A DNA stretch of 64,000 nt, from positions 30,915-94,914 of the forward strand of contig JAMPFQ010000006.1 in assembly GCA_023664345.1 (NCBI GenBank). Direction: 5' to 3'. The DNA comes from Lachnospiraceae bacterium. GTDB taxonomy: Bacteria > Bacillota > Clostridia > Lachnospirales > Lachnospiraceae. The notes under the pieces are model-generated. The model did not search any database. It was not told the DNA's origin and was given only the letters and a program-made list of their open reading frames with translations. Of this stretch, positions 2,266 through 20,071 are shown piece after piece (the first letter of the stretch is position 1; the number at the start of each line of letters is the position of its first letter). Position numbers and translations under genes: made by a program.

Positions 2266-2289
2266 TTTCCATTTACCTCCGGTTTTTAA

Positions 2290-3075: not shown

Positions 3076-3085
3076 ATCATCCTCC

Positions 3086-4267: not shown

Positions 4268-4318
4268 AAATTGATCCGTCCTTTCATTTCCTGTTCATTA
4301 CAGATCCAATATGTGTTT

Positions 4319-5320
4319 TTATCGGTACATCGTCCCTTTCTGTCCAAATCTGCGCCCCGCACGATATAGGACATCTTTTCCAAGAAGAGACGCCATTGCA
4401 CCTATCCTGTCCTTTCGGCGAAGATATGGGCTGAGATCAAACAAAACCATCATCCTGCTTTCTTTTATCCTGTTCCAAAACAATTCCCTGCTTTCTTTTT
4501 CTCTTTCGGGTATCTGTAAAAAAACAGTGCACATACTGGAAAACTTCCTGGCATAAAATGCTTTTTTTAATGTTGGATCATAGGACAATATATCTTTCTC
4601 CACCTGTTCCATCACAGACAACATGGTCAGTTTCCTCGAATCGTATTTCTGCCGTATAATGCTGTCCGCCCTTTTTCTATATGCATAGAGCGGCGCTTCA
4701 ACAACTGCTATACGCCTTGAACTCTGTAGCATTTTATAAGTAGTTGCCACATCCTCATATAGCCACCCTACAGGGAACCGGATGTCGCCTAATATTTCCC
4801 GCTTCAAGAACTTAAACGGCGCCCCTGTATTGATATCCCGATAAAACATACGTTCCAATGCATCGTGGGGATTTAGAATACTTATCCTGATATCTTCGTT
4901 CATTTCCCTTAACAGAGGCACACTGTCCTCCAGCTGTTCACCATCCCAAAAGGGTACTTCCTTTTTTATCATTGACATATCCGCCTGATTATCCTGTAAC
5001 GCATTTAGCATTACTTCCACAAAAAGATTGGATACAAAATCATCTGAATCTATAAATGCTATGTATTGCCCTGTTGCTGCCTCTATCCCGGCATTTCTGG
5101 CATCAGACAATCCGCCGTTCTGTTTATGAATCACCCTGATTCTGCGATCAAGGTCTGCATATTCGTCACAGACTCTTTCCGAACCATCTGTGGAACCGTC
5201 ATCAACTAATAGGATCTCAAGTTGTCCATATGTCTGCTTCCTGATCGAATCAATGCATCTTTTCAGATATGCCATCACATTATAAACAGGCACTATCACA
5301 CTGACTATTGGTTTTTCCAT
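4319..5320 (-). CDS. glycosyltransferase family 2
   Basis: A 333-residue GT-A fold enzyme: VSVIVPVYN at the N-terminus, LLVDDGSTDGS at about 36-46, then FIDSDDF (about 90-96) holding the DxD metal/nucleotide-sugar site. The C-terminal third is basic and probably lies against the membrane. It should add one sugar of the capsule repeat. The start is 3 bp from the stop of the FeS protein gene, so translation is probably coupled. The donor sugar cannot be read from the sequence. Confidence 0.88.
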   Translation of the reverse strand: MEKPIVSVIVPVYNVMAYLKRCIDSIRKQTYGQLEILLVDDGSTDGSERVCDEYADLDRRIRVIHKQNGGLSDARNAGIEAATGQYIAFIDSDDFVSNLFVEVMLNALQDNQADMSMIKKEVPFWDGEQLEDSVPLLREMNEDIRISILNPHDALERMFYRDINTGAPFKFLKREILGDIRFPVGWLYEDVATTYKMLQSSRRIAVVEAPLYAYRKRADSIIRQKYDSRKLTMLSVMEQVEKDILSYDPTLKKAFYARKFSSMCTVFLQIPEREKESRELFWNRIKESRMMVLFDLSPYLRRKDRIGAMASLLGKDVLYRAGRRFGQKGTMYR

Positions 5321-5322
5321 AT

Positions 5323-6528
5323 TTAATACTTCCTCAAGATTCTGACAAACATTTTTTTAATCAGGCTGTAAATACCCAGCTTATAACAGACCTGTCTGCC
5401 CATTCGTTCTATTTTGACACGTACTGTATCCGGAAAATATTTCTGGAATAATTCTTTTCCCGCCATATTTTCTGCATCCTGGAAAAATCCTTCTCGCTTA
5501 CGATTGTATTCAACGCTTTCATACATTTCTTTCACCTTATCCGTGATCATTTCAGGAGTCGTCTGGAAGATTCTGAAATGATCCTGTATCTGCTCAAAAA
5601 TCCTTCTTCCCTTTGATGTATGTACAAGTACACGAGTTGCTCCCAGATCATTATCCAGTTCCTTGGAAAATCTCCCCACATTGAATGCATCCCACATTGT
5701 AAAATCACTGACACGGTACTGTTTTTTAAAGGAACATTTATAGCAGGATGGCCGTACACTGACATTTGTGAAAAAGGCTCGGAGATAAGGATCCGATTCT
5801 ACACCACACTGATAAATTCTCCCATTTTTGTTATCCAGGGCAGTAATCACACTATACTTATATCCGTAAACGGATTTATCTCTGAAAACCAGATCAGCCA
5901 TCCGATTTTTTTTCTTCTCTTCTATATAATCGATATATTTTTTCAGTATCAGCGGCGATGGAACAGCCCGACAAACAACATCGCAGGTGATCAGATTTTC
6001 GTAATCTTTTCCCAGATATTTCTTGAATCCTTCAATCTGGCAGGGCGTTCCGGAATAACACACCATCCTTCCCTTTTCCAATTCATGTCTGGCCTCCCTG
6101 TATGTGTTGGCAGTGCTGCTCTGTACATACTTGCTTTTTCTGAACCGTCCAAGTTGGTCTGTATTGCAGACCCCAATATGCCTTGCCTGCAGCTTCTCGT
6201 TCATAGCAGCACCATAGACAATGCCGCCCTTTGATATTACATATTCGGCCAATGCGGTGAAAAAACCGCCGGAAGTGCTATCCTTTAGCACATCCAGGTT
6301 TTTATTCTGTATAAAGTATGCCTCCTGCTCAAACGGCTCTTCCCTGACAGGATTCTGAATCGGACAGACCGCTTTACATAAACCGCATTTAACACATTTA
6401 TCTTCATCTATGGACGGATATAAAAATCCTTCCGAATCAGTTTTCATGATGATGCAGTTTTTCGGACATATGTTCTCACAGGCCCCACACCCACAACATT
6501 GCGTTTTTAACTTAAAGTCATCCGTCAT
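5323..6528 (-). CDS. F420H2 dehydrogenase beta-subunit-like iron-sulfur protein of a polysaccharide locus
   Basis: A 401-residue protein. It starts with two ferredoxin-type clusters, CCGCGACENICP (about 11-22) and CVKCGLCKAVCP (about 45-56), followed by the Coenzyme F420 hydrogenase/dehydrogenase beta-subunit N and C domains (TSGGFFTALAEYVISKGG, then YSGTPCQIEGFKKYL). Such genes are commonly paired with polysaccharide pyruvyl transferase genes in capsule loci, exactly as here (6 bp apart). The real reaction in that context is not established. F420 itself is not expected in this taxon, so a flavin-linked redox or ketal/acid modification role is inference only. Confidence 0.82.
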   Translation of the reverse strand: MTDDFKLKTQCCGCGACENICPKNCIIMKTDSEGFLYPSIDEDKCVKCGLCKAVCPIQNPVREEPFEQEAYFIQNKNLDVLKDSTSGGFFTALAEYVISKGGIVYGAAMNEKLQARHIGVCNTDQLGRFRKSKYVQSSTANTYREARHELEKGRMVCYSGTPCQIEGFKKYLGKDYENLITCDVVCRAVPSPLILKKYIDYIEEKKKNRMADLVFRDKSVYGYKYSVITALDNKNGRIYQCGVESDPYLRAFFTNVSVRPSCYKCSFKKQYRVSDFTMWDAFNVGRFSKELDNDLGATRVLVHTSKGRRIFEQIQDHFRIFQTTPEMITDKVKEMYESVEYNRKREGFFQDAENMAGKELFQKYFPDTVRVKIERMGRQVCYKLGIYSLIKKMFVRILRKY

Positions 6529-6534
6529 AATCCG

Positions 6535-7701
6535 TCACCTTAGCGCTCTTTCCACAAATTTCCAAGAAGATTCGCACATTCCCTTTAATAAATCATTTAT
6601 CTTATCATATTCCAATTCTCTTTTTTCGATTTCAAGCATATCCGATGTCCGCGTAAGCAGCCTGGCCTTGTCTATATGTAATGTGTCAAACAGCGAATCC
6701 ATCCTTGTATTTGTAGACCCTTTAATTTGATCTCCGTATCTTTTGAATGCAAAAAAATTTTTATTTTCTATCAAAGAAAATGACGTGCCATGAAAAGAAT
6801 CCGTAATGATCACTTCCGCATGCCGGATCAGATTGATAAAGTCGCACGGACTTGCATCTACCAATTTCACATCATAATAGCATTCATCATACTTTATGTA
6901 TTGTTCCAGATGAATGATTGCAACCGTCTTAAGTCCGCGGCGGTTCGCATACCCGGCGATCATTTCCCTCTGCCATCTGTTATCTCCCAGCAAATATACA
7001 AAAATATATGGCTCAGTGTACAAAACATTATCAGGTATTTCTTGAAGCCATTCCTGCCTGCTGAGCATATACACTGGATCAGCCGTTACTTCACAGCTTA
7101 ATCCGCTGACTTCTTTCACTATTTTTGCTCCGCTCTCTTCCCTTACGGACAAATACCGAAAGCCCATCAACATTTGCTTATACTTTTCCCAATATTTGCG
7201 TGGTATTGCTTTCAGCCCGAAACTGGGCGCATAAGCGATCTTAGTCTGCCCCTCAGGTACAAATGCAAGAGTGTATATATCCGTCATGACACTGGACGGC
7301 AGCCATACCTGGTCGCTTCCTATCGCCACCGCATCGTACTTTCCAGCCAGCACGGACGCGTCATCCCAGTCTTTAACCTCTGTGCTTAATCTTAGATTCC
7401 CACTTATATAAGAATCAAATTCCCTATGTCTCGCCTCTAATTTATGTCTGTAATCTTTGTTGATCTTTTCGATTATTTTGCTAAAATAAACACCGCCTTT
7501 TCGACTTATCAATTCCATTATCTCTGCATTTTTCAGATAAAATATAACTCTTTTTTTTCTGGTGGAGTGCCACAGCAATTCCATATTCAGGATTTCTACT
7601 GTCACACCCAACTTCTCAAACATTTTTTGAGTTGCATATGTCTGCAAGACAGTGCCATAATTGACCGTTTTGTATGTAACTACCAAAAGAATCTTTTTCA
7701 T
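6535..7701 (-). CDS. polysaccharide pyruvyl transferase family protein
   Basis: A 388-residue protein beginning MKKILLVVTYKTVNYGTVLQTYA, the N-terminal signature of the polysaccharide pyruvyl transferase family (PF04230). A conserved C-terminal half contains VITDSFHGTSFSLIENKNF, the D-S-F-H-G motif. It should place a pyruvate ketal on a capsule sugar using PEP. I choose the ATG at 7701 over the one at 7716: a GGAG lies 9 nt before the former, whereas the latter overlaps that GGAG. It is adjacent to the FeS partner gene. Upstream is Rpn unit 1, which separates it from the earlier capsule genes. Confidence 0.83.
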   Translation of the reverse strand: MKKILLVVTYKTVNYGTVLQTYATQKMFEKLGVTVEILNMELLWHSTRKKRVIFYLKNAEIMELISRKGGVYFSKIIEKINKDYRHKLEARHREFDSYISGNLRLSTEVKDWDDASVLAGKYDAVAIGSDQVWLPSSVMTDIYTLAFVPEGQTKIAYAPSFGLKAIPRKYWEKYKQMLMGFRYLSVREESGAKIVKEVSGLSCEVTADPVYMLSRQEWLQEIPDNVLYTEPYIFVYLLGDNRWQREMIAGYANRRGLKTVAIIHLEQYIKYDECYYDVKLVDASPCDFINLIRHAEVIITDSFHGTSFSLIENKNFFAFKRYGDQIKGSTNTRMDSLFDTLHIDKARLLTRTSDMLEIEKRELEYDKINDLLKGMCESSWKFVERALR

Positions 7702-7792
7702 ACCGTCATTCTCCATGTCTGCATTTTATTCCTCGTTATTGCTTTATAAAAACAGTCACATAAACTGACTACCTGCCAGCATCTTTCTCCAA

Positions 7793-7839
7793 CAAAAAAC
7801 TCCTTCTGTAAGACAATCACATACCTTACATCAGGAGTT
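7793..7839 (-). terminator. Rpn unit 1 intrinsic terminator
   Basis: A 15-bp near-perfect stem (AACTCCTTCTGTAAG against CTTACATCAGGAGTT) with a run of six T on the minus strand lies downstream of the Rpn-1 gene. Its loop and inner arm (7812-7829) also form the left inverted end of the unit. Confidence 0.7.
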
Positions 7840-9045
7840 TCCTTTCCTTTTTATTCAGTTATCGTTACCCGTCCGCCGTTATCTCGCAGCGGTCACTTCT
7901 TCCTTTGTGCAGTTCAGGATGTTCATGATCAGGGACTCTTCCAGTCCTGCCTGGAGCATCTTACGCAGCACCCTTTCTTTTTCCTGTTTTGCTCCCTGCT
8001 TTGTGCCTTCCTGCCTGCCAATCTCTCTTTCTCTTTTACTCAAGTCTTCCAATGCTTTGCACATAAGCACTCCCTCCTCTACCTGTTGGAACAGTCTCCT
8101 GTCTCCCAGATGCGCCGAGATGACCAACTCGGTTTCATGGTTGAGTTTCTCCCTGCCTTCCTTATGGAACAGTTCTTCTAATCGGGACAGATTCCCGCGG
8201 CATTGCATTGCCTGGAAAAACTCCCTCAGGTCTGTATCATAATTTTTCGGGTCAACACAGTCTGCTTCTATAAGCGGAAACTCATAATCTTGAAATCGGC
8301 TGCCCAGCTGCTTCCTTAGTTCTGGCGAAATCCGAAGCAATTCCAACAGTCCCCGCTTCCCTTTCCATTGTCCCTCTCCCAGATACAAGACCATAGTCAG
8401 CACTGGGATCAGAAAATCATCCTGCTGCATTCGGCTTTTCCTGGAACGGTAATCCACATATTCCCCTTTTTCTTTGTGGATTTTATGTATCTCCCGGATC
8501 TGATGTTCATACTCGCTGGCATCATAGACCATGACCCTCTGCGGCATGCTGTAATCCGACTCGGTCTCTATCTCCAGACCGTAGCAGATATCATGTTTTC
8601 TGTCCCGCATCAGAACATCCCTTGTCTTTTCACCTGAAACAGTCCCAAGGGACGGATAGCTTCTCCTTAAAGATTCCAGTTCGTGCGGAACCAATATCCT
8701 CTCTCCACGATAGATCTCTGTGTTGACCAACTCCGCAAAACGCGTTCTGTCTTCAAAAAATCTCTTATCTAGTATGTCAATCTTCCCCATACATCCCTTT
8801 CCGGCCATACATAAGATGCAGCGTCAGCTTTCTCCTGTCAGCCATTTTTATGATTATGTGAAATATGGCTGATAACGCCGGAACCGGATATATCCGGTAA
8901 GCAACCCCGAACAGGATTAGAATTTCACAATGAAAGAAATGTTCTTTCGTTAAATGTATTGTAACAGATTCATTCTCTACTGTCAACAGGATCCTTTTTC
9001 CGCTTACTCTGTCTTCTGATATAAGGTATGTAATTGTCAAGGTAC
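7798..9045 (-). mobile_element. Rpn unit 1 (Rpn gene between inverted ends)
   Basis: A unit with the same plan as units 2 and 3. The left end (7812-7829) and right end (9021-9038) are inverted copies matching at 16 of 18 positions, and both are followed outward by related sequence (right: GTCAAGGTAC). The Rpn gene between them reads on the minus strand like the capsule genes. The 230 bp between the Rpn start and the right end (8791-9020) hold no convincing gene. Mobility is inferred from the three-fold recurrence of the structure. Exact borders and target duplications are not resolved. Confidence 0.55.
7879..8790 (-). CDS. Rpn-family PD-(D/E)XK nuclease / putative transposase (copy 1)
   Basis: About 303 residues, MGKIDILDKRFFEDRTRFAE at the start, related to the Rpn/YhgA-like family (recombination-promoting nuclease). 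The expected core is present: RKHDICYGLEIETESDYSMPQR, with the acidic residue of the E-x-Q/E motif retained, then YDASEYEHQ. The C-terminus has the Q/E/K-rich helical stretch that precedes the tail in this family. GGAAAGGG 4 nt before the ATG at 8790 supports that start over 8808. E. coli Rpn proteins are DNA endonucleases with reported roles in recombination and phage defence; the role here is unknown. It is clearly diverged from copies 2 and 3. Confidence 0.75.
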   Translation of the reverse strand: MGKIDILDKRFFEDRTRFAELVNTEIYRGERILVPHELESLRRSYPSLGTVSGEKTRDVLMRDRKHDICYGLEIETESDYSMPQRVMVYDASEYEHQIREIHKIHKEKGEYVDYRSRKSRMQQDDFLIPVLTMVLYLGEGQWKGKRGLLELLRISPELRKQLGSRFQDYEFPLIEADCVDPKNYDTDLREFFQAMQCRGNLSRLEELFHKEGREKLNHETELVISAHLGDRRLFQQVEEGVLMCKALEDLSKREREIGRQEGTKQGAKQEKERVLRKMLQAGLEESLIMNILNCTKEEVTAAR

Positions 9046-9063
9046 AGATACCGTCCAGCACCA

Positions 9064-9110
9064 ATAAAAACTCCCGGTATAAGACAACTGCATATCTTAC
9101 ACCGGGAATT
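9064..9110 (-). terminator. Rpn unit 2 intrinsic terminator
   Basis: A stem of AACTCCCGGTATAAG with CTTACACCGGGAATT, followed on the minus strand by TTTTTATT. It closes transcription of the second Rpn gene and contains the left inverted end 9083-9100. Confidence 0.7.
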
Positions 9111-9141
9111 ATATTCCTTCTACTATTCTATTATCTGGCGG

Positions 9142-10089
9142 TCACTGCCAGTACAACGCCATGCTTTCCTTTACCCTGGAATCATCCAGCGCATATTTTT
9201 CCTTTACCTTGTCCGCTGTCGTTTCAAAAGTTGCCCCTAGTTCACGGCATGTGGAGATCAGCGCCCTTATGCCCTTTTGACGCTCCTCCTGATGTCCCTG
9301 CTGGAGGCCTTCCTGCCGTCCCTGCTGGAGACCGCCTCCCCAATACTTATCCATCAGCTTGCACACGGTCCATTTCCCTCCTTCCTTCGTTTTCTCCTCT
9401 CTCATGAGGTTGTCTATCACTGTTCCATACCGATCATCCCCCGACAATGCCTGCATGACTTCCAGCAGCGCCTCCGGATGGCTGACTTCATGTTCCAGCT
9501 TATCCACGCTTTCCTCATCCGCTAGGTATTCCAAGATAATCCGCATGTCACTCCGGAATCTCCCTATGATATCCCTAGACAGGTGGCGCATCTCAAATAC
9601 ATGGAGTCTTTCATTGTCTATGTACCTCCACGCCGTAGGGTGGATAGCTTTTCTCTTGAAAAACTCCCGCATGGAGCGTGAAGTCCTCCAGCGTTTCTTT
9701 CCCCAGTACAGCACCAGTTCCATGACCGGGCAGATCTCTTTCATCTGCTGTTCATACTGCCCCCTGTAACAGCCGCCGACATAGCCACACTTCCTCAACA
9801 ACATCCTGCTGTCTGTCCGCGACTGGTTGGCTAGCAGGTACAGTATCCTCGCATGGCCTTCCTCATCTGTCTCATACCTGCCCAGATCTTCATATTGGTT
9901 CCTCAGCCTACGTTCCTGGTCCCTGTAACGGGTCTCCGTACCTGCCTGACTGAGATGCCGCAGATCTACCACCTGCTCTCCCCCGTACACCAATGCGTTC
10001 AGGATGTCCGCGAACACATCCGGATACGATTCCAGTTCCTTTTGTGGGATGTCATAGCCGCCCTGCTGTGAATCTTGTGGTCTTTCCAT
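9142..10089 (-). CDS. Rpn-family PD-(D/E)XK protein (copy 2)
   Basis: 315 residues starting MERPQDSQQGGYDIPQKELES with AGGAGG 7 nt upstream. It has the layout of the Rpn/YhgA family, but the usual I/L-E-N-Q motif reads YLLANQSRTDSRMLLR (about 105-120), so the acidic residue is replaced by Ala, which may cripple the nuclease. The C-terminal region carries a glycine/glutamine-rich repeat (GLQQGRQEGLQQGHQEE, DNA about 9268-9330), longer than in copy 3. The tail KVKEKYALDDSRVKESMALYW is nearly shared with copy 3. It sits between the pyruvyl transferase side and the radical SAM gene of the capsule operon, in the same direction. Confidence 0.72.
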   Translation of the reverse strand: MERPQDSQQGGYDIPQKELESYPDVFADILNALVYGGEQVVDLRHLSQAGTETRYRDQERRLRNQYEDLGRYETDEEGHARILYLLANQSRTDSRMLLRKCGYVGGCYRGQYEQQMKEICPVMELVLYWGKKRWRTSRSMREFFKRKAIHPTAWRYIDNERLHVFEMRHLSRDIIGRFRSDMRIILEYLADEESVDKLEHEVSHPEALLEVMQALSGDDRYGTVIDNLMREEKTKEGGKWTVCKLMDKYWGGGLQQGRQEGLQQGHQEERQKGIRALISTCRELGATFETTADKVKEKYALDDSRVKESMALYWQ

Positions 10090-10424
10090 CTATTTTCCTC
10101 CTTCTGCCTTTCCAGCGGCGGAAAAAGATGGTTCCTGCCGTCCCTAGTTCCGCCACTATCTTTTTAAAAAGTTGAATCTGTGGCGAAATGCCTGAACATG
10201 CACTTTGAACCGTGGATCTCCACGAAAATGCGACTGATTCTCCCTCTTTATAGCATAAGTCTACCACAAGACGCCGCAATGTGCAATCATTTTTTCAATA
10301 CTCCGTTTTATTTTTCACGATGTAAGATATGCAGTTGTCAAGGTACATGGTTCCATTTATCTACACGGGCTTTCGCCCGATGTATTCATATTTTTCCCGT
10401 TTTAGAGCCCGGTCTGTGGCTTTC

Positions 10425-12077
10425 TCACATCACCCGGTTCTTCACTTTCTGAACAGTAAGCTTCACTCCATACTTCTGGACGATCCTTATCCCATATCCG
10501 ATTGAGCGAGCCATGCCATACTGTTTTATAAATTTGCCCACTAACCGTCTGCCATTATTGATGCGGCGCTTTCTGACTGATCTTTCATTCGAACGGTCGT
10601 AAACTCCCAGCATAAGTTCATCCATCTCCTGTGAAAGGCATACCTGTTTATCCACATCCCATCCTGTCCGCAATTCCCCCAACAAAGAAGTATCGATCCG
10701 CAGAAATTCTCCTTTATTTCCATCAAGTCCCATCCTTTCAAAAATGTTTGTGAGCGAAAGCGCGTCCCTATTGACCAGAGTGCACCAGCCTGCTGTAAGT
10801 TCGGAACCATTATCTATGTATGGATTGCGTCCTTCTACCGGAAAATCTATCCAGTGCAATGTTCCCGGGTTTACCGCACAATGCTTCAATTTTTCAAATC
10901 CCTCACCCATACGGATCCCGGCAGTCATAAACACGATATATGCATGGGCAGGCAGATCCTCCATGAGATGCTGCCAACTCACAGGATCTGTTTCCAGGAC
11001 AGTCTGCAATACCTTAAGGTGTTTTCCGTTCCATTCCCGGGTTTCCCCATCCCTGTCCCTCTCCGCCTCATCCCGGTATATCATGACGCCACACAGGTTC
11101 CTTGCGTAGATTGGAGTGCTTCCCGATACACGATCCTGCGCATCCTCCATATAGGTAACACCATGATATTCTGCGGCGGATCTCCTGCTTTTTTCTGAAA
11201 TGATGCCATCCTTGATCTCTACTCGGTTTATCTTCTGGTCCACCAATCGGACATTATCCATTGCTGACATCACAGCATAATTTGTATCAGAAATATCATC
11301 TATGCCCTCTCTGGCATCCCTGGCGAAAGTCTCCAACGGAATACCACAGTATTCGCACCATTGGAATTGCTCCGCAAAATCCTCGATCGGGCGTTTCCAC
11401 CATCCTTTTTCGACCGGAAGTCCTCCCGGCCCGTTATACATGAAATCCAATGCAGCTGCCACTTCGCAGAAAAAACACCCTTTAGGCGTCACCGAACTGC
11501 TCCACTGCTGATTCACCCAGCAGTTTTCCCTCAACCGAAGCCATTCCTTATCGCCGATCCCCATATCTTTTCTGGAGATCAATACCGGCTGATGAAAAGA
11601 AATATTCTGATGATCATTCAGATTTTGAAAATTAAATACGTCTTGGATGATCTCATAATTTTCCAGATACTTTGGCGTCATGGATGTCCATAACCCGGCT
11701 CCCCGGATTATAGGCCTGGGCCCATCCTCATATGGATAAATTTCGTATTTATTTAATTCCAGTTCCCGTCTTACTTCAATGAAGCTGTCCGTAGGAAGCT
11801 TCATACCCCCTCTGTCAGGTTTTGATCCCTCAGGCAGTTTATCCGCCAGGTACATGCACATCCGCTTAAAATCCGGATGGATGGTCGGCTCGCCTCCCAT
11901 CACGCCGATCAGGCCGGGATGATCCATCACGGAATCTACCGCCTTACAAAAGAAATCATAGTCCATAAAAAAAGGCTTTTTATGGTGTCCGCAAAAGCGT
12001 GTACAGTTGGAGCAGGTATGGATACAGGCGTTTGTCACTTCTATCTGGATGACCCAGTGGTCTTTCGGTGGTTTCAC
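10425..12077 (-). CDS. radical SAM protein of the capsule locus
   Basis: 550 residues. CIHTCSNCTRFCGHH at about 17-31 carries the CxxxCxxC cluster motif for the SAM-cleaving 4Fe-4S centre, and VMGGEPTIHPDF is the GGE motif that binds SAM methionine. Additional cysteines (KGCFFCE at about 199-205, CEYCG at about 240) could bind an auxiliary cluster. The C-terminal 250 residues are not typical of a known class and may be a glycan-recognition or glycosyltransferase-like domain. The gene lies immediately downstream of a GT2 gene (9 bp). A radical modification of a capsule sugar is the natural inference; the reaction is unknown. Confidence 0.78.
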   Translation of the reverse strand: MKPPKDHWVIQIEVTNACIHTCSNCTRFCGHHKKPFFMDYDFFCKAVDSVMDHPGLIGVMGGEPTIHPDFKRMCMYLADKLPEGSKPDRGGMKLPTDSFIEVRRELELNKYEIYPYEDGPRPIIRGAGLWTSMTPKYLENYEIIQDVFNFQNLNDHQNISFHQPVLISRKDMGIGDKEWLRLRENCWVNQQWSSSVTPKGCFFCEVAAALDFMYNGPGGLPVEKGWWKRPIEDFAEQFQWCEYCGIPLETFARDAREGIDDISDTNYAVMSAMDNVRLVDQKINRVEIKDGIISEKSRRSAAEYHGVTYMEDAQDRVSGSTPIYARNLCGVMIYRDEAERDRDGETREWNGKHLKVLQTVLETDPVSWQHLMEDLPAHAYIVFMTAGIRMGEGFEKLKHCAVNPGTLHWIDFPVEGRNPYIDNGSELTAGWCTLVNRDALSLTNIFERMGLDGNKGEFLRIDTSLLGELRTGWDVDKQVCLSQEMDELMLGVYDRSNERSVRKRRINNGRRLVGKFIKQYGMARSIGYGIRIVQKYGVKLTVQKVKNRVM

Positions 12078-12086
12078 TTTTTTCTC

Positions 12087-13163
12087 CTATCTTCTGCTTT
12101 TCAGTTTGTGGAACAATGCCGGATCTGATCTGCGGATATGATATACCATCCCATACATCAAATAGGCCAGCAGCGTGTTCCGCATTTTTATCGGGAAAAC
12201 TAACAACCTCATTTTCCTGCTTCTGCATCTGGCATAACTTACCGCCTCACGCACATCTTCATGTCTGATGATATCCCCGATCCTCATGTATTTTTCTTTG
12301 GCGCTCAGCTGCTTTTCCGCATGGAAAATATTCTCCAGGCAGCCGCTGATGCGCTCCGTAAATTCCCGACAGGTATATTCTCTTGCCTTGTCATCCCATA
12401 TCCCCAGTTTCTTGAAATGATCCTGAAACTCGTGGTATTCCTTATATCTGATCAGGAAATAATCATCCCTATATTTCTCCGTTGTTGAACCTGTCCTCTC
12501 CCTGACATAGTAATAAAGACACTGTTCCGTAACGGCCAGGCTGCCACAATTTTCGATGAACTGTCTGTTAAATACTCTGTCCTCCGTATAAACATGGCCA
12601 TTCCTATAGTACAGATCTTTTTCCCTTATCAAACTCAGCTTATACATCTTGTTCCAGACATTGGATAAAATATCGGAATCCCACATATCCACCAGATGCT
12701 CTCTGATCTGCTCTGGTGTCCTGTAATGTACGGATGGGTACTTTTTTTCTTCAAGGTACGTCGTCTGCACCTTTCCTTTTTTTATCTGTTCTACCTTAAA
12801 ATAGAACCCGCATACTCCCAGATCGATACCTGTATCTTCCATAAGAGAAACCATTTTTTCATACATGTCCGAAGCGAGTTCATCATCGGCATCCAGAAAA
12901 GTGATATATCTGCCCGACGCGGCTTCTATGCCTTTATTTCTGGCGCTGGCTGTTCCACCATTCTCTTTATGGATAACTTTATATTTATCTTTTCCGCTCA
13001 GTAATCGATCTAACTGCCCGCCTGTTCCGTCTGTAGAACCGTCATTGACAAAGATGGCTTCCCACTCTGAAAAAGTCTGGTTTTCAAGATTATCAATACA
13101 AAGCTGTATGTACTCCTGCGCATTATAGCAAGGTATGACAATAGAAAGTAATGTTTTTTCCAT
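12087..13163 (-). CDS. glycosyltransferase family 2
   Basis: A 358-residue GT-A enzyme starting MEKTLLSIVIPCYNAQEY, with IFVNDGSTDGTG (about 35-46) and FLDADDEL (about 88-95) as the nucleotide-sugar and DxD motifs. The start at 13163 is favoured over the longer frame from 13244. AGAGGGGCG precedes it by 5 nt, and its ATG overlaps a TGA in TGATG. That TGA and ribosome binding site are a leftover copy of the 3' end of the sugar-transferase gene, separated from its parent by Rpn unit 3. It probably adds the second or third sugar. Confidence 0.87.
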   Translation of the reverse strand: MEKTLLSIVIPCYNAQEYIQLCIDNLENQTFSEWEAIFVNDGSTDGTGGQLDRLLSGKDKYKVIHKENGGTASARNKGIEAASGRYITFLDADDELASDMYEKMVSLMEDTGIDLGVCGFYFKVEQIKKGKVQTTYLEEKKYPSVHYRTPEQIREHLVDMWDSDILSNVWNKMYKLSLIREKDLYYRNGHVYTEDRVFNRQFIENCGSLAVTEQCLYYYVRERTGSTTEKYRDDYFLIRYKEYHEFQDHFKKLGIWDDKAREYTCREFTERISGCLENIFHAEKQLSAKEKYMRIGDIIRHEDVREAVSYARCRSRKMRLLVFPIKMRNTLLAYLMYGMVYHIRRSDPALFHKLKSRR

Positions 13164-13199
13164 CAGTACGCCCCTCTGCCCGGATATACTTAAGATCCA
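13161..13199. repeat. decayed duplicate of the sugar-transferase 3' end
   Basis: 13161-13180 is identical to 14537-14556 (CATCAGTACGCCCCTCTGCC), the last codons of the sugar-transferase gene plus the TGATG overlap. 13181-13199 matches about 14614-14632, so the copy has lost about 57 bp in the middle. The two copies bracket Rpn unit 3. The kept part supplies the ribosome binding site and start of the GT2 gene. Confidence 0.75.
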
Positions 13200-13242
13200 A
13201 TATACTTCTGACATTTTCCAAATAGAAATCTTTTCTCCAACC

Positions 13243-13286
13243 AAAAACTCCCGGTATAAGACAACTGCATATCTTACACCGGGAAT
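13243..13286 (-). terminator. Rpn unit 3 intrinsic terminator
   Basis: The same hairpin as in unit 2 (ACTCCCGGTATAAG paired with CTTACACCGGGAAT) with a short T run on the minus strand. It may reduce read-through from the early capsule genes into the GT2 gene. Confidence 0.65.
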
Positions 13287-14538: not shown

Positions 14539-15285
14539 TCAGTACGCCCCTCTGCCGCCGATCACACTGCCCACCGTCCTGAGGATGATCCTGAGGTCGG
14601 TCAGGATGCCCGCTTCCCGGATATACTTAAGATCCAGTTCCACCCACTCATCGAACGGGATATCATTTCTGCCACTGCACTGCCAATAGCAGGTAAGTCC
14701 CGGCTTGACGAGCATCCTCTGTCTCTGGTACGCATTGCATTGTTCCGTTTCGTATGTAGGCAGCGGCCTTGGGCCGACCACGCTCATTTCTCCCTTTAAT
14801 ATGTTCAAAAGCTGCGGCAGTTCATCGATGCTGGTCCTTCTCAGTACTTTCCCCACTTTAGTGAGCCGAGGATCGTTCTTCATCTTGAATGCCGGGCCGT
14901 CCAGTTCATTTTGGTCAAGAAGGCTCTGATGCATTTTCTCCGCATCCGTACACATGCTCCGAAATTTGTACATCCGGAATACTTTGCCGTTTATCCCATT
15001 TCTTTCCTGTACGAAAAAGACCGGGCCGCGATCCTCTATCTTGATAGCCAGAGCCACAAGCAGAAATATCGGTAAAAGTAATATCATGCCCACCAGAGAT
15101 GCCACAATGTCAAACACCCTCTTTACTATCCTGTATCCGATCTTCCCTCCGGGAATCTCCCGCGCCTGCCGCCCGGGATCAGCGGTGCCGTCTATCACAT
15201 AAAAGGCAGCCGGTTTCTTTTCCGGTTCCGCACCGGAACCCGCTATTCCCAGATCCATTGCATTCGCGCCGTAGCTGTTCTCCAT
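14539..15285 (-). CDS. undecaprenyl-phosphate sugar phosphotransferase (bacterial sugar transferase family)
   Basis: 248 residues. A variable N-terminus of about 50 residues is followed by RIVKRVFDIVASLVGMILLLPIFLLVALAIKI (membrane re-entrant helix, about 53-84). Then come KFRSMCTDAE, RRTSIDELPQLLNILKGEMSVVGPRP and a C-terminal PGLTCYWQCSGRND, the set of motifs of PF02397 phosphoglycosyl transferases. It starts the repeat unit by moving a hexose-1-P type group to undecaprenyl phosphate. It lacks the N-terminal four-TM domain of WbaP/WcaJ and is the short monotopic form. It follows the CpsBCD regulators, the usual order in Gram-positive capsule operons. Confidence 0.9.
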   Translation of the reverse strand: MENSYGANAMDLGIAGSGAEPEKKPAAFYVIDGTADPGRQAREIPGGKIGYRIVKRVFDIVASLVGMILLLPIFLLVALAIKIEDRGPVFFVQERNGINGKVFRMYKFRSMCTDAEKMHQSLLDQNELDGPAFKMKNDPRLTKVGKVLRRTSIDELPQLLNILKGEMSVVGPRPLPTYETEQCNAYQRQRMLVKPGLTCYWQCSGRNDIPFDEWVELDLKYIREAGILTDLRIILRTVGSVIGGRGAY

Positions 15286-15319: not shown

Positions 15320-16042
15320 CTACTCGTTCCCATAATTCCCGTAATACTTTCCATAGTATTTCCCGTAGTATTTTCCGTAATATTTTCCATAGTATTTTCC
15401 GTAGTATCCCTTTCCGGTCATATCCACCTTATTGAGCACTACGCCCAGGATCTTCGCGTTGGCCACTTCCAGCTGTTCCTTTATCCTCCTGGCAAACTGG
15501 TAGCTGATCGCCCCCATCTCCATGACAACGGCAACGCCGTCGCAGTGCTTGGATATAATCGCCGCATCGATCACGCTCCCTACAGGCGGCGTGTCGATGA
15601 TCACTATATCGAACACTTTCCTACACTCCTCTATCATCGCGCTGAACCTGCTGTTGCCCAGCAGTTCGCTGGGGTTCGGCGGTACGGGCCCGGCGAACAC
15701 CATATAGAAATTTGGAACGTCCGTGGTACAGGTCACATTCGAGAATTCCTGTTTCCCGGCCAGATAGTTCGTCAGCCCGTATTTGATCTTTCCCCTCTTA
15801 TATCTGGACCTCATCACTGATTTGCGCAGATCCGCGTCTATCAGGATGGTCTTCTTGCCCGCCTGGGCAAAGGACAGCGCCAGTTCAAAACTCACGGAGG
15901 ATTTTCCCTCGTTGGGCGTCGCGGACGTCAGCGCGACCACTTTGATGTCGTCCCCCGAGAACTCTATGTTTGTCCTTAAAGTCTTAAATGCTTCTCTCGC
16001 CCTGAAATCCAGGTTTGTCTGTCTGATCTCAAATTCCTGCAT
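15320..16042 (-). CDS. capsule tyrosine kinase (CpsD/CapB/EpsB type)
   Basis: 240 residues. Walker A TSATPNEGKSS (about 39-49), Walker A' ILIDADLRKS (about 70-79) and Walker B IVIIDTPPVGS (about 146-156) identify a BY-kinase. The last 30 residues are a tyrosine cluster of repeated Y-Y-G-K units, the autophosphorylation tail. It should work with the CpsC-like protein encoded just upstream, whose gene it overlaps by 14 bp, and be dephosphorylated by the PHP-type phosphatase. The tail is unusually regular (see the repeat feature). Confidence 0.92.
   Translation of the reverse strand: MQEFEIRQTNLDFRAREAFKTLRTNIEFSGDDIKVVALTSATPNEGKSSVSFELALSFAQAGKKTILIDADLRKSVMRSRYKRGKIKYGLTNYLAGKQEFSNVTCTTDVPNFYMVFAGPVPPNPSELLGNSRFSAMIEECRKVFDIVIIDTPPVGSVIDAAIISKHCDGVAVVMEMGAISYQFARRIKEQLEVANAKILGVVLNKVDMTGKGYYGKYYGKYYGKYYGKYYGKYYGNYGNE
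15329..15409. repeat. 12-bp coding tandem repeat (YYGK tail of the capsule kinase)
   Basis: About six copies of a 12-bp unit of the form TACTATGGAAAA on the minus strand, with small silent differences, encode repeated Y-Y-G-K. Such a repeat can change copy number by slippage without breaking the frame. Confidence 0.85.
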
Positions 16043-16838
16043 GACTGTCTTTCCTGTCCTTCCTCTGGTCTATCGCTCCCGCATCCTTTGTCCTGACCGG
16101 AGCGGGCCTCTTTTTGACTGCATGCTTCCCTGCTGTACTCTTCTCATCGGCTTCTTCCTCTATCACCGGAATCAGCGCCAGCGTTCCCCATCCAAGGTAC
16201 TTATCCACATCCTCGGAGGATTTGATCGTATCATCCGCCACATATTGGATGACCAGGACCAACAGACTCAAAAGCACCCCTAAAGCTGCTCCCAGGACCG
16301 TCCACATCAGGACGGATGGCTCAGATGGTTCTTTCGGCAGGTTTGCCAGATCGACCACATTCACCGCTTCCACATCCGTGACCGCCGTGATGTGCTCGGA
16401 CGCCACTTCCCTGATGCTGTTGGCTATGTACTGCGCCATCGCGGGATTGGTATCCTTCACTGTGATATATATGATCCTTGTGTCCGTGGTGTTCTCCACC
16501 GTGACACGCTTTTTCAAGTCCTCAAACCCATCCGGCAGGCTGCACTGTTCTATCACGGTCTCCAGCACATACCTGCAAGTGATCAGTTCCTCATAATCCT
16601 TGGTGAGCAGCGTGGAGAACTGCGCGTCACTGTAGGAAAAATTGGAATTGTCCTGCCTGCTCATGACGTAGATGCCTGTCGTTGATTCATATTTAGGCGT
16701 GATAAGGAAAGCGCTCACCGCGAACGCCGCCAGTCCTGCGACCGCGCCGCACAGCAGTATCAGCCACAGCCGATGCAGCACCAACCCTAAAAGTTCTTCC
16801 AGATCGATCTCGATCATATTGTTGTTCTGTTCCTGCAT
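16029..16838 (-). CDS. capsule chain-length/kinase-activator protein (CpsC/Wzz family)
   Basis: 269 residues with an N-terminal membrane segment (about 29-51: LWLILLCGAVAGLAAFAVSAFLI) after IDLEELLGLVLHR. A Wzz-type extracellular domain follows, with a second membrane segment at about 180-203 (VLMWTVLGAALGVLLSLLVLVIQYV). The C-terminal cytoplasmic tail is long and basic (KHAVKKRPAPVR), suited to contact the separate kinase. This is the split arrangement of Firmicutes, unlike the fused Wzc. It controls polymer length and kinase activity. Confidence 0.88.
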   Translation of the reverse strand: MQEQNNNMIEIDLEELLGLVLHRLWLILLCGAVAGLAAFAVSAFLITPKYESTTGIYVMSRQDNSNFSYSDAQFSTLLTKDYEELITCRYVLETVIEQCSLPDGFEDLKKRVTVENTTDTRIIYITVKDTNPAMAQYIANSIREVASEHITAVTDVEAVNVVDLANLPKEPSEPSVLMWTVLGAALGVLLSLLVLVIQYVADDTIKSSEDVDKYLGWGTLALIPVIEEEADEKSTAGKHAVKKRPAPVRTKDAGAIDQRKDRKDSHAGI

Positions 16839-16845
16839 ATCCCTT

Positions 16846-17586
16846 TTACTCCGCGTTTATTATTGTTGATGCGTTCTCATGGAAGATTTCATCCATATAG
16901 GATTCCCCATATCTTTTTACCAGCGCCTGGTAACATTTCTGGAACTGCGGCGCCCTGCCCCGGGCATCGTGGGCATCCGTTCCCACATAATCGACCAGGT
17001 TTTCCTGTAAGATATCATGGATGAACCTCTGGATCTGTTTCCCCAGCTGGCCGACGGCACTGGCGGCATTGATCTGGATCTCCGCGTCCATCTGCTTCAG
17101 TTCCCTCACACGCTTCCAATCCCGGACCATGCATCCATACCGTTCCACATGGGCAAGGATCGGCACATATCCCACCGCCCTGACGCTGTCAAGCGCATTG
17201 CGGATGTATGTATGATCCTCCGTGGGAGAGAACTCCACCAGCACACGATCCGTGTGGTTCAGGCTCAGGACTTCGTTATTTTCCAGCCGCTCCGGCAAGC
17301 CGTCAAAATAGAAGACCTCATTTCCCGGATACAGCGGGATGAAGATGCCTTGTCTTTCCGCTTCCTCCTGCACTTTCCCGATTCTTTCCATGATGGTGGC
17401 AGGACTGGCGTTATGGCGGCCTTCCTTATAGTGCGGGGTCACAATCATCGCCGTTATCCCCTCGCTCTGCGCGATCCGGAGCATATCCATCGTCTGTTCC
17501 ATGCTCCTGGAGCCATCATCCACCGCAGGCAGGATATGGCAGTGCATGTCCGTCATTTTTCCCGATCTTTTTTCCCTGAAAAGCAT
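16846..17586 (-). CDS. CpsB/CapC-type tyrosine phosphatase (PHP domain)
   Basis: 246 residues. DMHCHILPAVDDGS (PHP motif I) and YVGTDAHDARGRAPQF at the C-terminal metal site define a manganese-dependent protein tyrosine phosphatase that resets the CpsD-type kinase. It is the first gene of the capsule operon. Either the ATG at 17586 or the one at 17556 (MTDMHCHIL) could be the start: the first has GGGAG 3 nt upstream, the second only a weak purine run. The left inverted repeat of the recombinase segment lies 78 bp upstream of 17586, so its expression depends on what is placed there. Confidence 0.88.
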   Translation of the reverse strand: MLFREKRSGKMTDMHCHILPAVDDGSRSMEQTMDMLRIAQSEGITAMIVTPHYKEGRHNASPATIMERIGKVQEEAERQGIFIPLYPGNEVFYFDGLPERLENNEVLSLNHTDRVLVEFSPTEDHTYIRNALDSVRAVGYVPILAHVERYGCMVRDWKRVRELKQMDAEIQINAASAVGQLGKQIQRFIHDILQENLVDYVGTDAHDARGRAPQFQKCYQALVKRYGESYMDEIFHENASTIINAE

Positions 17587-17663
17587 ATTCTCCCTGATCC
17601 AGGACCACTGTTGTCCTTTGTAAATTTTCCATGATCTTCTTGTGATATTTGGGTCATAATGTA

Positions 17664-17691
17664 TTCGTAGATTTTTATAATCTGCGAAAAT
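17664..17691 (+). repeat. left inverted repeat / recombinase core site
   Basis: Two 10-bp imperfectly inverted arms, TTCGTAGATT (17664-17673) and AATCTGCGAA (17679-17688), surround the 5-bp spacer TTTAT. The 28-bp block is the inverse of 19045-19072 with one mismatch. The spacer is asymmetric and matches the other site only in inverted orientation, which predicts inversion rather than excision. Confidence 0.82.
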
Positions 17692-17720
17692 GACAGTCTG
17701 TCATATCGATTTCAAAGGAT

Positions 17721-18848
17721 CTATATACAGTCTTGACCACTATATTGACCATAAATAAGAGCCAGTGTGTTCATATGCTGGCGTTTTATTTCGGTTGTGG
17801 GATGCACGTATCTGTTTAATGTGATCCTCACATCGGAATGTCCCAGGATCTCGCTCAGACTCTTGATGTCCGTTCCGCTGTCTATGCAGTTTGTCGCAAA
17901 AGTATGGCGCAGGATATGAAAATTGGTCTTTTCTATTCCGGCAGCTTCCAGATACTTGATAAACCTGTTCTGGTATGTCCTTGGTTCCATGGGCTTACTT
18001 CCATACAGTACATAGCCGGTATCTTCGCGATAGGGCTGCAGCAGTCTGACCATGTCATCGGTGATGGGGATCTCACGCTTTGAAAAGCAGCTTTTGGGGG
18101 CGCTTTCCATCAGGGCCGTCCTCGTCTTTCGGTTCTGTACGGAAATTCTTTGGACGGTCCGATTGACATACAGGATCCGGTTCTCAAAATCGATATCTTC
18201 CCATTTCAGCGAACAGATCTCTCCAAGTCTCAGCCCGGTGGACAGACATAAGAGGATCCCTGTTTTGCTGACATCCGGGAAACTGTACAGATATCGTATG
18301 AGTTTTGCCTGTTCTGATCTGGAAAGCGCTTCTATCGGTTTGCGCATCTTTTTGTTCCCGTCGCACACAACAGAGTGACAGGCTATCTGATAACGATCCG
18401 CCGTATATTTTATGATCTGGTTCGTGACGCATGAAATGCTTCTGAGTATACTGCAAGATTTCTCGATATTATGAGGGAATACGGAATTGACCATGTCCTG
18501 CGAGATCTCGCTGATCCGAATATTTCCAATGATGGGTTTTATATAGATATCATAGATATTTCGATATTTGACACATGTGGAATGCTTTCTTTTCCCTTCT
18601 ATATATCCAAACCATTCCATGGCACTGTCATTAAATGTTATGCTATTTTGTTCGTCCCATGTTTTTTCAACCGACTGATCCGGCTCTCCGCACTTTATTT
18701 TTGCCACGGATAACTTTGCTTTCACATCTCTGTATGTCCTTGCGTAAACCGACCGGGAACGGACGATTCCGGCACTGTCTGCATATCGGTATCGCCCCTC
18801 CCATCGACCGTCTTTTCGTTTTCTGATGTTTTCTCCTCTTCTTGGCAT
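17721..18848 (-). CDS. tyrosine recombinase (phage-integrase family), likely invertase
   Basis: 375 residues from the ATG at 18848, which has AAGGAGG 7 nt upstream (the frame is open back to 18908). An N-terminal AP2-like arm-binding region (GENIRKRKDGRWEGRYRYAD) and a SAM-like core-binding domain are followed by the catalytic domain. Its motifs are TGLRLGEICSLKWEDI with the first Arg, HILRHTFAT (HxxR), LGHSDVRITL and the nucleophile Tyr in NRYVHPTTE. It is the only gene inside the inverted repeats. There are no excisionase, replication or conjugation genes nearby, so an integrated element is less likely than a dedicated DNA-inversion enzyme. In this orientation it is co-directional with the capsule genes. 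Confidence 0.9.
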   Translation of the reverse strand: MPRRGENIRKRKDGRWEGRYRYADSAGIVRSRSVYARTYRDVKAKLSVAKIKCGEPDQSVEKTWDEQNSITFNDSAMEWFGYIEGKRKHSTCVKYRNIYDIYIKPIIGNIRISEISQDMVNSVFPHNIEKSCSILRSISCVTNQIIKYTADRYQIACHSVVCDGNKKMRKPIEALSRSEQAKLIRYLYSFPDVSKTGILLCLSTGLRLGEICSLKWEDIDFENRILYVNRTVQRISVQNRKTRTALMESAPKSCFSKREIPITDDMVRLLQPYREDTGYVLYGSKPMEPRTYQNRFIKYLEAAGIEKTNFHILRHTFATNCIDSGTDIKSLSEILGHSDVRITLNRYVHPTTEIKRQHMNTLALIYGQYSGQDCI

Positions 18849-18949
18849 GTTCTTTCCTCCTTGACCATTTTTTTGACCATTAATAGCTTTTGTAAAAGCC
18901 GGGATCACATATATTGAACGGATATTTCACACAATTTTTTCAAGTACTG

Positions 18950-18978
18950 TTGACAAAAACTGAAAAAGGAACTATACT
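18950..18978 (+). promoter_or_regulatory. consensus sigma-70 promoter inside the invertible segment
   Basis: TTGACA (18950-18955), 17 bp, TATACT (18973-18978). It reads rightward, with a predicted start near 18985. No gene lies on the plus strand before the terminator at 19073-19106. The strong match without a target gene is what makes the inversion model attractive. Confidence 0.8.
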
Positions 18979-19044
18979 TTCATAGTTGATATCTGGTAAA
19001 AGTGTATCTGTACATTGTAACAGGGCATACACATGCGGTTTTGT

Positions 19045-19072
19045 ATTTTCGCAGATTATAAAAATCCACGAA
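19045..19072 (-). repeat. right inverted repeat / recombinase core site
   Basis: Arms TTCGCAGATT (19048-19057) and AATCCACGAA (19063-19072) with spacer ATAAA. It is the inverse of 17664-17691 with a single mismatch in 28 bp. Confidence 0.82.
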
Positions 19073-19106
19073 AAAAGGCATTCGAAAAATTTCGAATGCC
19101 ATTTTT
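19073..19106. terminator. bidirectional terminator between the capsule switch and the DUF3021 operon
   Basis: A perfect stem GGCATTCGAAA / TTTCGAATGCC (19078-19101) is flanked by AAAAAA on the left and ATTTTT on the right. It therefore ends both rightward transcripts from 18950 and leftward transcripts of the LytTR-DUF3021 operon. Confidence 0.85.
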
Positions 19107-19138
19107 CATGGATCTGAAGCTGTCACGCTTTCGCTCTG

Positions 19139-19600
19139 TCAAAGCTGGCTTCCCGCATGATCTCTCTCTCTACTCTTTTCTTTCTGATACTCCTCCAGAC
19201 GTTTATTCATCTTATCCGCTTCCTTTATCCCTTTTCTCCAGGAAATGGCCGTTATGACCCCGAAGATAATGGCGATGGAAAGCATCATGGCGGCCACACT
19301 GCTGAACTCAGAGGGATTGTACCAGTCAAACAGCACCCCGCTGCCCAGCACTACCGCATTGATCAGGGCATAATGAACTATCGTCCTGACGATGGCTTCC
19401 ACCTTGCCCATCTCCCTGCGCCATGGATAAACGACCAGCGACATCAAGGTACACATTCCCGACACCAGCGACATCTGCCACAGGAGCGCTGATTCCACCC
19501 GCTCTATGGGATTGACGACGGTGGTGAACACTGCCACCGCGAACACAACGCCGGTCAGCACCATGGTATAGATTTGAAATAAATATCTCAGCCTGCTCAC
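19139..19600 (-). CDS. DUF3021-family membrane protein
   Basis: About 153 residues with four predicted membrane helices (around 9-30, 39-58, 73-93 and 104-123) and a charged C-terminus (KEADKMNKRLEEYQKEKSRE). DUF3021 proteins are typically encoded next to LytTR regulators, as here. They are thought to be membrane partners that inhibit the regulator. I choose the GTG at 19600, which has GGAGAGG 8 nt upstream, over the GTG at 19609, which abuts the same site. It is the last gene of a four-gene operon. Confidence 0.85.
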   Translation of the reverse strand: MSRLRYLFQIYTMVLTGVVFAVAVFTTVVNPIERVESALLWQMSLVSGMCTLMSLVVYPWRREMGKVEAIVRTIVHYALINAVVLGSGVLFDWYNPSEFSSVAAMMLSIAIIFGVITAISWRKGIKEADKMNKRLEEYQKEKSRERDHAGSQL

Positions 19601-19633
19601 ATGAACCACCTCTCCTCAATCTGTAAATCCGGT

Positions 19634-20071
19634 CTACAGTCCCAGCTTTGCTTTCAGATCCGGTACATACTGCCTGGACACGATCAGCTTTTCCCCGTTT
19701 TTCATCAGCAGCTCGAACCGGCCATTAAAGGCGGGACTGAAACTCTTTACCCAGGCGAGATTGACAATGGTAGATTTGGTCGCCCTGAAAAAATCCGTTT
19801 CCGCAAACCTCTGCTCCAATTCATACAGCTTAAGCCTGCACTCGTAGACATCCTTTTCCAGATAGACGAACACCTTATTATCCACCGCCTCAAAATAGTA
19901 GATTTCTTTCGGGGGCACCTGTACAAATTTCCCCTCCCTGAGGACAGTCAGTTTCTCCTGCCCTGCTTTCAGGGCATAGATCATTTTCAGCATCCTGTCG
20001 TCCAGATGGCGGCATCGGACAATGATCTCATCCTCCTCGCCATCCGGGCGGTCCTGTATCGTTATCTTCAT
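19634..20071 (-). CDS. LytTR DNA-binding transcriptional regulator
   Basis: 145 residues. An N-terminal region of about 40 residues without a receiver domain is followed by a LytTR domain: VPPKEIYYFEAVDNKVFVYL, then YELEQRFAETDFFRATKSTIVNLAWV and FELLMKNGEKLIVSRQYV. It should bind a pair of direct repeats upstream of a target promoter. The ATTCTACCG pair at 22085-22104, upstream of its own operon, is a candidate. It is 4 bp from the permease gene and paired with DUF3021. Confidence 0.9.
   Translation of the reverse strand: MKITIQDRPDGEEDEIIVRCRHLDDRMLKMIYALKAGQEKLTVLREGKFVQVPPKEIYYFEAVDNKVFVYLEKDVYECRLKLYELEQRFAETDFFRATKSTIVNLAWVKSFSPAFNGRFELLMKNGEKLIVSRQYVPDLKAKLGL

Follow-up and report, generated by a model that had tools for sequence, protein, structure and literature searches.

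Phase variation of the capsule in gut commensals has been documented mainly in Bacteroides, where the recombinase can act in trans. The locus described here lies in the window, i.e., the whole 64,000-nucleotide stretch of Lachnospiraceae DNA which was analysed, and resembles the Bacteroides capsule invertons (Mpi) in that inverted repeats surround a promoter beside a surface polysaccharide operon, for which phase variation is predicted. However, the tyrosine recombinase of the window sits inside its own 1.4-kb segment and one pair of sites was found, whereas Mpi is a serine recombinase acting on at least 13 regions scattered over the genome (PMC5903667); the Bacteroides capsule invertons are also treated in PMC11892184.

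The Hin flagellar switch of Salmonella shares with the window a recombinase gene placed inside the bounded, inverting segment. Hin, a serine recombinase, works with hix sites and an enhancer, whereas the recombinase domain of the window is of the tyrosine and not the serine type, and is accompanied by spacer-type core sites and putative arm sites. Recombinases are usually encoded near the invertible segment and occasionally inside it, Hin being the example named (PMC5903667). The RecV switches of Clostridioides difficile are alike in having a tyrosine recombinase, surface genes and a host within the Clostridia. The gene for RecV lies outside its invertible segments. RecV acts on more than one separate switch (PMC5903667). 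Also in the Clostridia, inverton group 139 has been linked to a tyrosine recombinase/integrase (invertase group 35), and two examples of the group span approximately 255 bp and thus cannot contain a recombinase gene (PMC11892184). These are possibly the nearest published relatives of the window switch, which, at 1409 bp including the gene, is set apart from them by the length of those two examples.

The integrases of Tn916 and Tn1549 are alike to the window recombinase in sequence and in catalytic residues. The Tn916 integrase has arm sites. In contrast to these elements, the window segment has no transposon genes among its scanned neighbours and its sites are inverted; we infer that the recombinase inverts DNA instead of excising it. 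That a capsule switch carrying its own recombinase is little described in Lachnospiraceae, as an earlier note on this DNA had it, agrees with the open-licence PMC literature in the portions available: no self-contained tyrosine-recombinase capsule switch was found described for this family, including in the accessible parts of PMC10939037, PMC11868660, PMC12413058 and PMC13418256.

Anatomy of the segment upstream of cpsB

The segment and its immediate surroundings contain the following features, in window coordinates:

17664..17691, 28 nt: left recombination site (cpsB side), inverted repeat arm
17721..18848, minus strand: tyrosine recombinase gene inside the segment, with PF00589 and PF14659 matches
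17732..17757, plus strand: putative arm-type site in the 3' end of the recombinase gene, with two TTGACCA units spaced 12 bp apart
18860..18885, plus strand, 26 nt: putative arm-type site, direct repeat of 17732-17757 (85%)
18950..18978, plus strand: outward promoter TTGACA-17-TATACT, 11/12 consensus bases
19045..19072, 28 nt: right recombination site, inverted repeat arm
19077..19100, both strands: two-way intrinsic terminator beyond the right site, towards which the outward promoter points; its stem has T-runs on either strand
19139..19609, minus strand: DUF3021 gene, not a target, with its 3' end towards the switch
19634..20071, minus strand: LytTR regulator gene, a neighbour

The earlier note had claimed two 28-bp inverted repeats with one mismatch, and these are real: the arms are 27/28 complementary (96%) with 1353 nt between them, giving a whole segment of 1409 bp, and the pair scores 25.5 against a maximum of 14.0 in the shuffled flanks of 164 recombinase matches. 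The core-site form which it proposed, 10-bp arms around a 5-bp spacer, was also found. The left 25-bp core is TTCGTAGATT-TTTAT-AATCTGCGAA and the right TTCGTGGATT-TTTAT-AATCTGCGAA, so that the spacer TTTAT is present in both sites and their sole mismatch lies in the outer arm. The segment is thus bounded by near-identical inverted repeats and, judged from the sequence alone, holds an internal promoter which points out across one of them; by this anatomy the switch is an inverton, a known kind. We consider it a new variant on two counts: the gene for the tyrosine recombinase is contained within the switch itself, and the clade to which the switch belongs is largely built in the same way.

The recombinase ORF, claimed to lie with the promoter between the repeats, is intact and extends over 17721-18908 (395 aa counted from GTG), with a probable ATG start at 18848 behind AAGGAGG. 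It matches Phage_integrase (PF00589, E = 1.7e-30) and the SAM-like Phage_int_SAM_3 (PF14659), and the catalytic residues R207, K252, H311, R314, H337 and Y347 are all present. At the N-terminus there was no Pfam match to an arm-binding domain, and the window's genome holds no close paralogue, the next match being 33% identical over part of its length. The closest solved proteins, ranking first, are the ‘Int protein’ chains 6en0, 6emy and 6emz, which we take to be the Tn1549 integrase.

Such transposon integrase chains as best solved relatives would fit a reading in which the gene is the integrase end of a mobile element using distant att sites, the inverted repeats being merely its binding sites. 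However, when the genome of the window (3,882,407 bases in 47 contigs) was searched for TTCGYRGATT-N5-AATCYRCGAA with at most two mismatches, no copies were found besides the two window sites, which are inverted; there is thus no sign of distant att sites, and these were rejected, in keeping with the earlier note's view of the recombinase. There is, furthermore, no transfer or phage gene among the scanned neighbours, the same compact unit recurs beside unrelated genes, and two related loci show inversion (see below), so that we give the mobile-element reading next to no credence.

The two putative arm-type sites have a counterpart in the nearest relative, L007, where the direct repeat is 18 nt long and has the same 1128-base spacing as in the window. 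Among the repeat-flanked relatives introduced below, direct repeats scoring at least 14 between the ends of the recombinase gene occur in 33/86 members, as compared with 2/258 shuffled sequences and 5/86 in the inverted sense, and many are GTCA doublets. As a word TTGACCA is common (13 in the window, 8.9 expected), and it is the paired, spaced arrangement which is the notable part. We regard the GTCA doublets next to the recombinase gene as probable arm-type sites bound by the N-terminal part of the recombinase.

On the cpsB side of the segment lies a run of capsule genes, all on the minus strand:

16846..17586, minus strand: cpsB (CpsB/CapC family), heading the operon predicted as target; CpsB_CapC, E = 1.8e-91
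16029..16838, minus strand: Wzz-type chain-length determinant (cpsC), Pfam match
15320..16042, minus strand: CpsD-type ATPase (AAA_31), Pfam match; the name CpsD is assigned by position
14539..15285, minus strand: priming sugar transferase (Bac_transf), Pfam match
1138..13244, minus strand: further same-strand genes, including GT2, pyruvyl transferase, Wzy_C and polysaccharide deacetylase

The last stretch also contains a weak polysialyltransferase match and interspersed YhgA-like ORFs. Two similar YhgA-like (Transposase_31) genes were observed inside the capsule run, at 9142-10089 and 13319-14242; another ORF of about their size, at 7879-8808, gave no Pfam match.

The segment is directly upstream of cpsB, as claimed. 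The further description of a switch in front of the capsule operon holds with a correction: the segment adjoins cpsB, but as assembled its promoter aims right, away from cpsB, whilst the recombinase gene on the minus strand aims towards it. The terminator begins 5 bases beyond the end of the right repeat and is also conserved in L007. With the promoter directed away from cpsB into this terminator, and the DUF3021 and LytTR genes pointing at the switch, the assembled orientation is predicted to be OFF. By arithmetic, inversion would carry the start of the -35 box to 17786 and the end of the -10 box to 17758, leaving a leader of approximately 165 nt to the cpsB start at 17586.

In the mechanism proposed, the Tn916/Tn1549-type tyrosine recombinase would recombine the two inverted core sites and flip the 1409-bp segment, including its own gene and the strong outward promoter. 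As assembled, the promoter would fire away from the capsule genes into the terminator (OFF), a state which is perhaps leaky through weak read-through from the recombinase gene; once flipped, the promoter would lie approximately 165 nt upstream of cpsB and drive the capsule operon (ON). We consider it very probable that the segment is a self-contained, cis-encoded capsule phase switch, and a phase-variable capsule is predicted for this strain. A leader RNA or riboswitch was considered and rejected: Rfam yielded four matches with E values up to 1, all far under their gathering scores, and the best of them was CsrC, at 24.8 bits as against a gathering score of 61, over the terminator region.

Recombinases flanked by their own repeats

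Homologues were gathered from genome collections and plasmids, the first set consisting of 80 loci kept out of 125 relatives. Later searches gave 99 distinct places besides the window, with wide stretches for 60, a sample which is not random as these were picked roughly by rank with some choice; 15 further wide stretches came from an earlier search. Two loci seen in the early scan (L095, L096) had no repeat there, the viral loci L119-L130 entered the first repeat scan only, and the narrow loci L140-L191 stand outside the analysis. For each match the best inverted repeat was sought from 700 bases upstream to 400 downstream, with a cut-off score of at least 17.

An inverted repeat at this cut-off was found for 86/172 recombinase matches and for 0/164 controls shuffled in two-base blocks. 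This figure is an undercount, as at least five of the loci counted as having no repeat (L031, L038, L114, L116 and L117) had one in an earlier scan and lost it when their gene start was estimated to lie further upstream than the repeat; eight of the 86 matches without a repeat had too little flank, and L131, L132 and L139 scored 16.0-16.5, just under the cut-off. Among the 86 rows are the window itself, the near copies L210/L212 and L039/L046, and three loci (L109, L112, L246) where the best repeat is a longer repeat of the flanking genes. Taking the best match per locus, repeats accompany 20/25 recombinases with at least 45% identity to the window protein, 43/58 at 37-45%, 21/37 at 32-37% and 1/35 below 32%, with 1/10 for partial matches. 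In a tree of 148 proteins, built by a quick method and rooted for drawing only, one branch (SH-aLRT 99) sets 117 rows, comprising all 83 with flanking repeats and 34 lacking one at the cut-off, apart from the other 31, none of which has a repeat. Three of the 86 recombinase reads had in-frame stops as cut and were left out of both the tree and the catalytic alignment, in which the six residues R-K-H-R-H-Y are invariant in 83/83 members.

Across 68 site pairs with a clear dyad, a set from which the three long-repeat rows, the rows without a clear dyad and duplicate pairs are left out, 0/379 spacer positions differ within a pair, although 55 distinct spacers are represented. Outer-arm positions differ in up to 15/68 pairs and inner-arm positions in up to 13/68. 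A looser first pass over 81 pairs, some with off-centre cores, gave 1/438 mismatches and identical spacers in 80/81 pairs. Within-pair spacer identity is what site-specific strand exchange demands; the figures should be considered with caution, as the pairs were picked on overall similarity, a criterion favouring agreement around the centre. The recombinase of L007 is 80% identical in amino acids to that of the window, the locus has the same CpsB and LytTR neighbours, and the two 25-bp cores differ from those of the window by one spacer base only, changed in both sites, each locus retaining the same difference between its two outer arms. As a separate observation, locus L012 has sites (4763-4790 and 6186-6213) with several arm mismatches around a similar centre, scoring 15.5, and is perhaps a decaying or locked switch.

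Promoters were scanned between the repeat and the start of the recombinase gene, with scores from a hand-entered matrix. An outward promoter scoring at least 12 was found in 69/86 members (median 14.3), the remaining 17/86 falling below 12, whilst towards the recombinase gene the same score was reached in 14/86 (median 9.95), as compared with 9/86 (median 9.1) in shuffled sequence. The promoter hexamers are conserved between the window and L007; at L108, which also lies at cpsB, the outward promoter is weak (10.3).

Inversion and orientation among relatives

The earlier note had looked to related genomes for the opposite orientation, and this was found in L195 and L196, two paralogous loci of one genome (G427) of the same bacterial family, the recombinases of which are 53% identical to that of the window. 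Their segments are 95.0% identical when read in one direction, and the flanks are exchanged: the 5' flank of L195 matches the reversed 3' flank of L196 (90.8% over 2003 bases), its 3' flank matches the reversed 5' flank of L196 (92.8% over 222 bases), and no match was found between like flanks of the two loci. The breakpoints lie inside the 26-bp repeats; the difference between the outer arms has remained attached to the flank. The segment has thus inverted naturally between L195 and L196 relative to both flanks. Homologous target genes were also found on opposite sides of the switch between species, e.g., in L008 and L192, where two genes are approximately 70% identical. Among Enterococcus loci with alignable flanks, all alignments of at least 150 bases were on the same strand and collinear, and further Enterococcus comparisons, in which pieces were joined by strand and which do not amount to a strict test, gave no opposite orientation. 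For the window itself, the flipped orientation had 0 matches in a pattern scan of viral contigs, and a DNA search among plasmids gave one distant record only; viral relatives of the recombinase are at most 29% identical, and the best listed relative from the phage collection is 42.4% identical.

The three cpsB-linked loci (the window, L007 and L108) all share one orientation. This, along with the degenerate sites of L012, would be expected of a fossil or locked switch, in which inversion occurred in the past and the window copy no longer flips. However, the recombinase is intact with its catalytic residues, the sites are 27/28 matched, and since the split from L007, over which the gene itself has diverged, the same spacer base has changed in both sites. 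Such a concerted change would not be expected of inert sites and therefore counts against a fossil, which we hold to be improbable.

If an outgoing gene is defined as one of at least 100 aa within 400 bases of the switch, such genes are present on the 3' side of the recombinase only in 51 members (one near a contig end), on the 5' side only in 11 and on both sides in 17, with seven unclear; these orientation classes are approximate as the ORF calls are mechanical. In 14/50 members of the 3'-only class a terminator faces the promoter, as against 1/50 with one on the target side (2 and 0 in shuffled sequence). The 5'-only class has 0/11 on the promoter side and 2/11 on the other side, the class with genes on both sides has 4 and 3 of 17, and the unclear class 2 and 0 of 6. 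Where the target is clear, the predicted promoter thus mostly faces away from it in the assembled genomes. The 51:11 skew may reflect OFF as the commoner state, or biased flipping, and a freely flipping switch might give orientations nearer to even. The skew weighs against the phase-switch reading, as do the single orientation of the cpsB-linked loci, the collinear Enterococcus pairs, the weak promoter of L108 and the matches which lack a repeat or a promoter at the cut-off.

The same skew could be read in another way. As the recombinase gene is directed towards the sole nearby outgoing gene in 51 members as against 11, the assembled orientation might instead be ON, with the recombinase gene's own promoter reading through the left site and co-transcribing the recombinase and capsule genes; the outward promoter would then be incidental or drive something else. 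A scan of 17500-19300 gave no minus-strand terminator between the recombinase stop and cpsB, which is consistent with this reading. However, the gene-ward promoter median is barely above that of shuffled sequence and well short of the outward one, the outward hexamers and the facing terminator are both conserved in the window and L007, and the terminators of the 3'-only class are mostly on the non-target side. An ON state driven by the recombinase transcript is, in our judgement, unlikely, and less likely than the OFF assignment, which we retain.

Target genes and a proposed origin of the cassette

The first gene beside the switch differs widely between loci. Besides CpsB at the three cpsB-linked loci, it encodes a sortase (L009, L105, L200), a pilin (L027), a WxL lectin-type protein (L025), Trans_reg_C regulators (L028, L030, L036), an FHA protein (L014), PP2C phosphatases (L211, L218) or a UDP-GlcNAc 2-epimerase (L230); helicases with HA repeats and a TnpB-like protein also occur. 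First genes with other functions include an Hsp70 (L107), an FtsK-type protein (L045) and a condensation/AMP-binding enzyme (L239), and others have no Pfam match. In the subset of members scanned, surface functions thus appear frequent among the targets, though others occur too.

We favour, with some confidence, the view that the Tn1549-type integrases of a whole clade have become domesticated as part of a promoter cassette which inverts itself, sits beside varied genes and escapes short-segment surveys. The cassette would have the layout site, outward promoter, recombinase, site, with paired arm-type sites; its neighbours would be capsule, sortase, pilin, adhesin, regulator and sugar-modification genes, and its hosts Lachnospiraceae-type Clostridia, relatives of Ruminococcus, and Enterococcus. 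The inverton finder in common use accepts repeats only if they lie well under 1.4 kb apart, and this limit could explain why the switch family was missed; a length of approximately 1.4-1.6 kb would hide the cassette from read-based inverton surveys tuned to short segments. The window thus offers a self-contained switch in a Firmicute, the nearest relative found being in a Blautia MAG, with approximately 80 other repeat-flanked relatives of one architecture. Heterogeneity of capsule, pilus, adhesin and glycan in Clostridia and enterococci becomes directly testable from sequence, as each family member predicts two junctions and, given a clear target, the ON state as well. In addition, the family forms a natural series for how a core-and-arm-site integrase became an inverter.

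Several observations on individual loci were made alongside. One homologous family of first genes is shared by 14 loci (L008, L010, L106, L113, L192, L193, L197, L202, L205, L206, L207, L209, L221, where it is a 181-aa piece, and L223). Of these, five were scanned with Pfam and gave a TnpB/Cas12f-like TNB match (PF07282), with L113 just under the cut-off, and 3/3 scanned with NCBIfam fall under the TnpB cut-off. In 13 aligned proteins the Zn-ribbon cysteines are kept and the RuvC acidic residues, judged by eye, are not; these genes resemble relatives of TnpB with a dead nuclease, placed at the head of switched operons. In six further switched operons the first gene encodes one of a set of homologous helicase-like proteins with helicase-associated (HA) repeats, identified by profile scan in L110, L115 and L194 and by homology in L195, L196 and L199; in L195 the next gene is a LegC/PseC-type aminotransferase, under the curated cut-offs.

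Two loci, L109 and L246, have inverted repeats of at least 166 bp with homologous sequence on both sides, and L109 (L092 in the early scan) has sugar-transferase matches on both flanks, which suggests a switch between two operons. Megaplasmid loci were found in Enterococcus raffinosus (L134, L136) and Enterococcus gilvus (L135). L136 lies before accessory Sec genes, the E. raffinosus plasmid locus leading into secA2/secY2 by annotation, and L135 lies before WxL genes, with a repeat score of 13.0, under the cut-off. L134 and L136 share 78% identity over the cassette region and 99% over the upstream flank, which suggests that the cassette has been exchanged. Finally, L210 and L212, from genomes assigned to different genera, are 99.99% identical over 8.8 kb and 100% over 4.1 kb, switch included, a near-identity which would point to either recent transfer or mis-binning.
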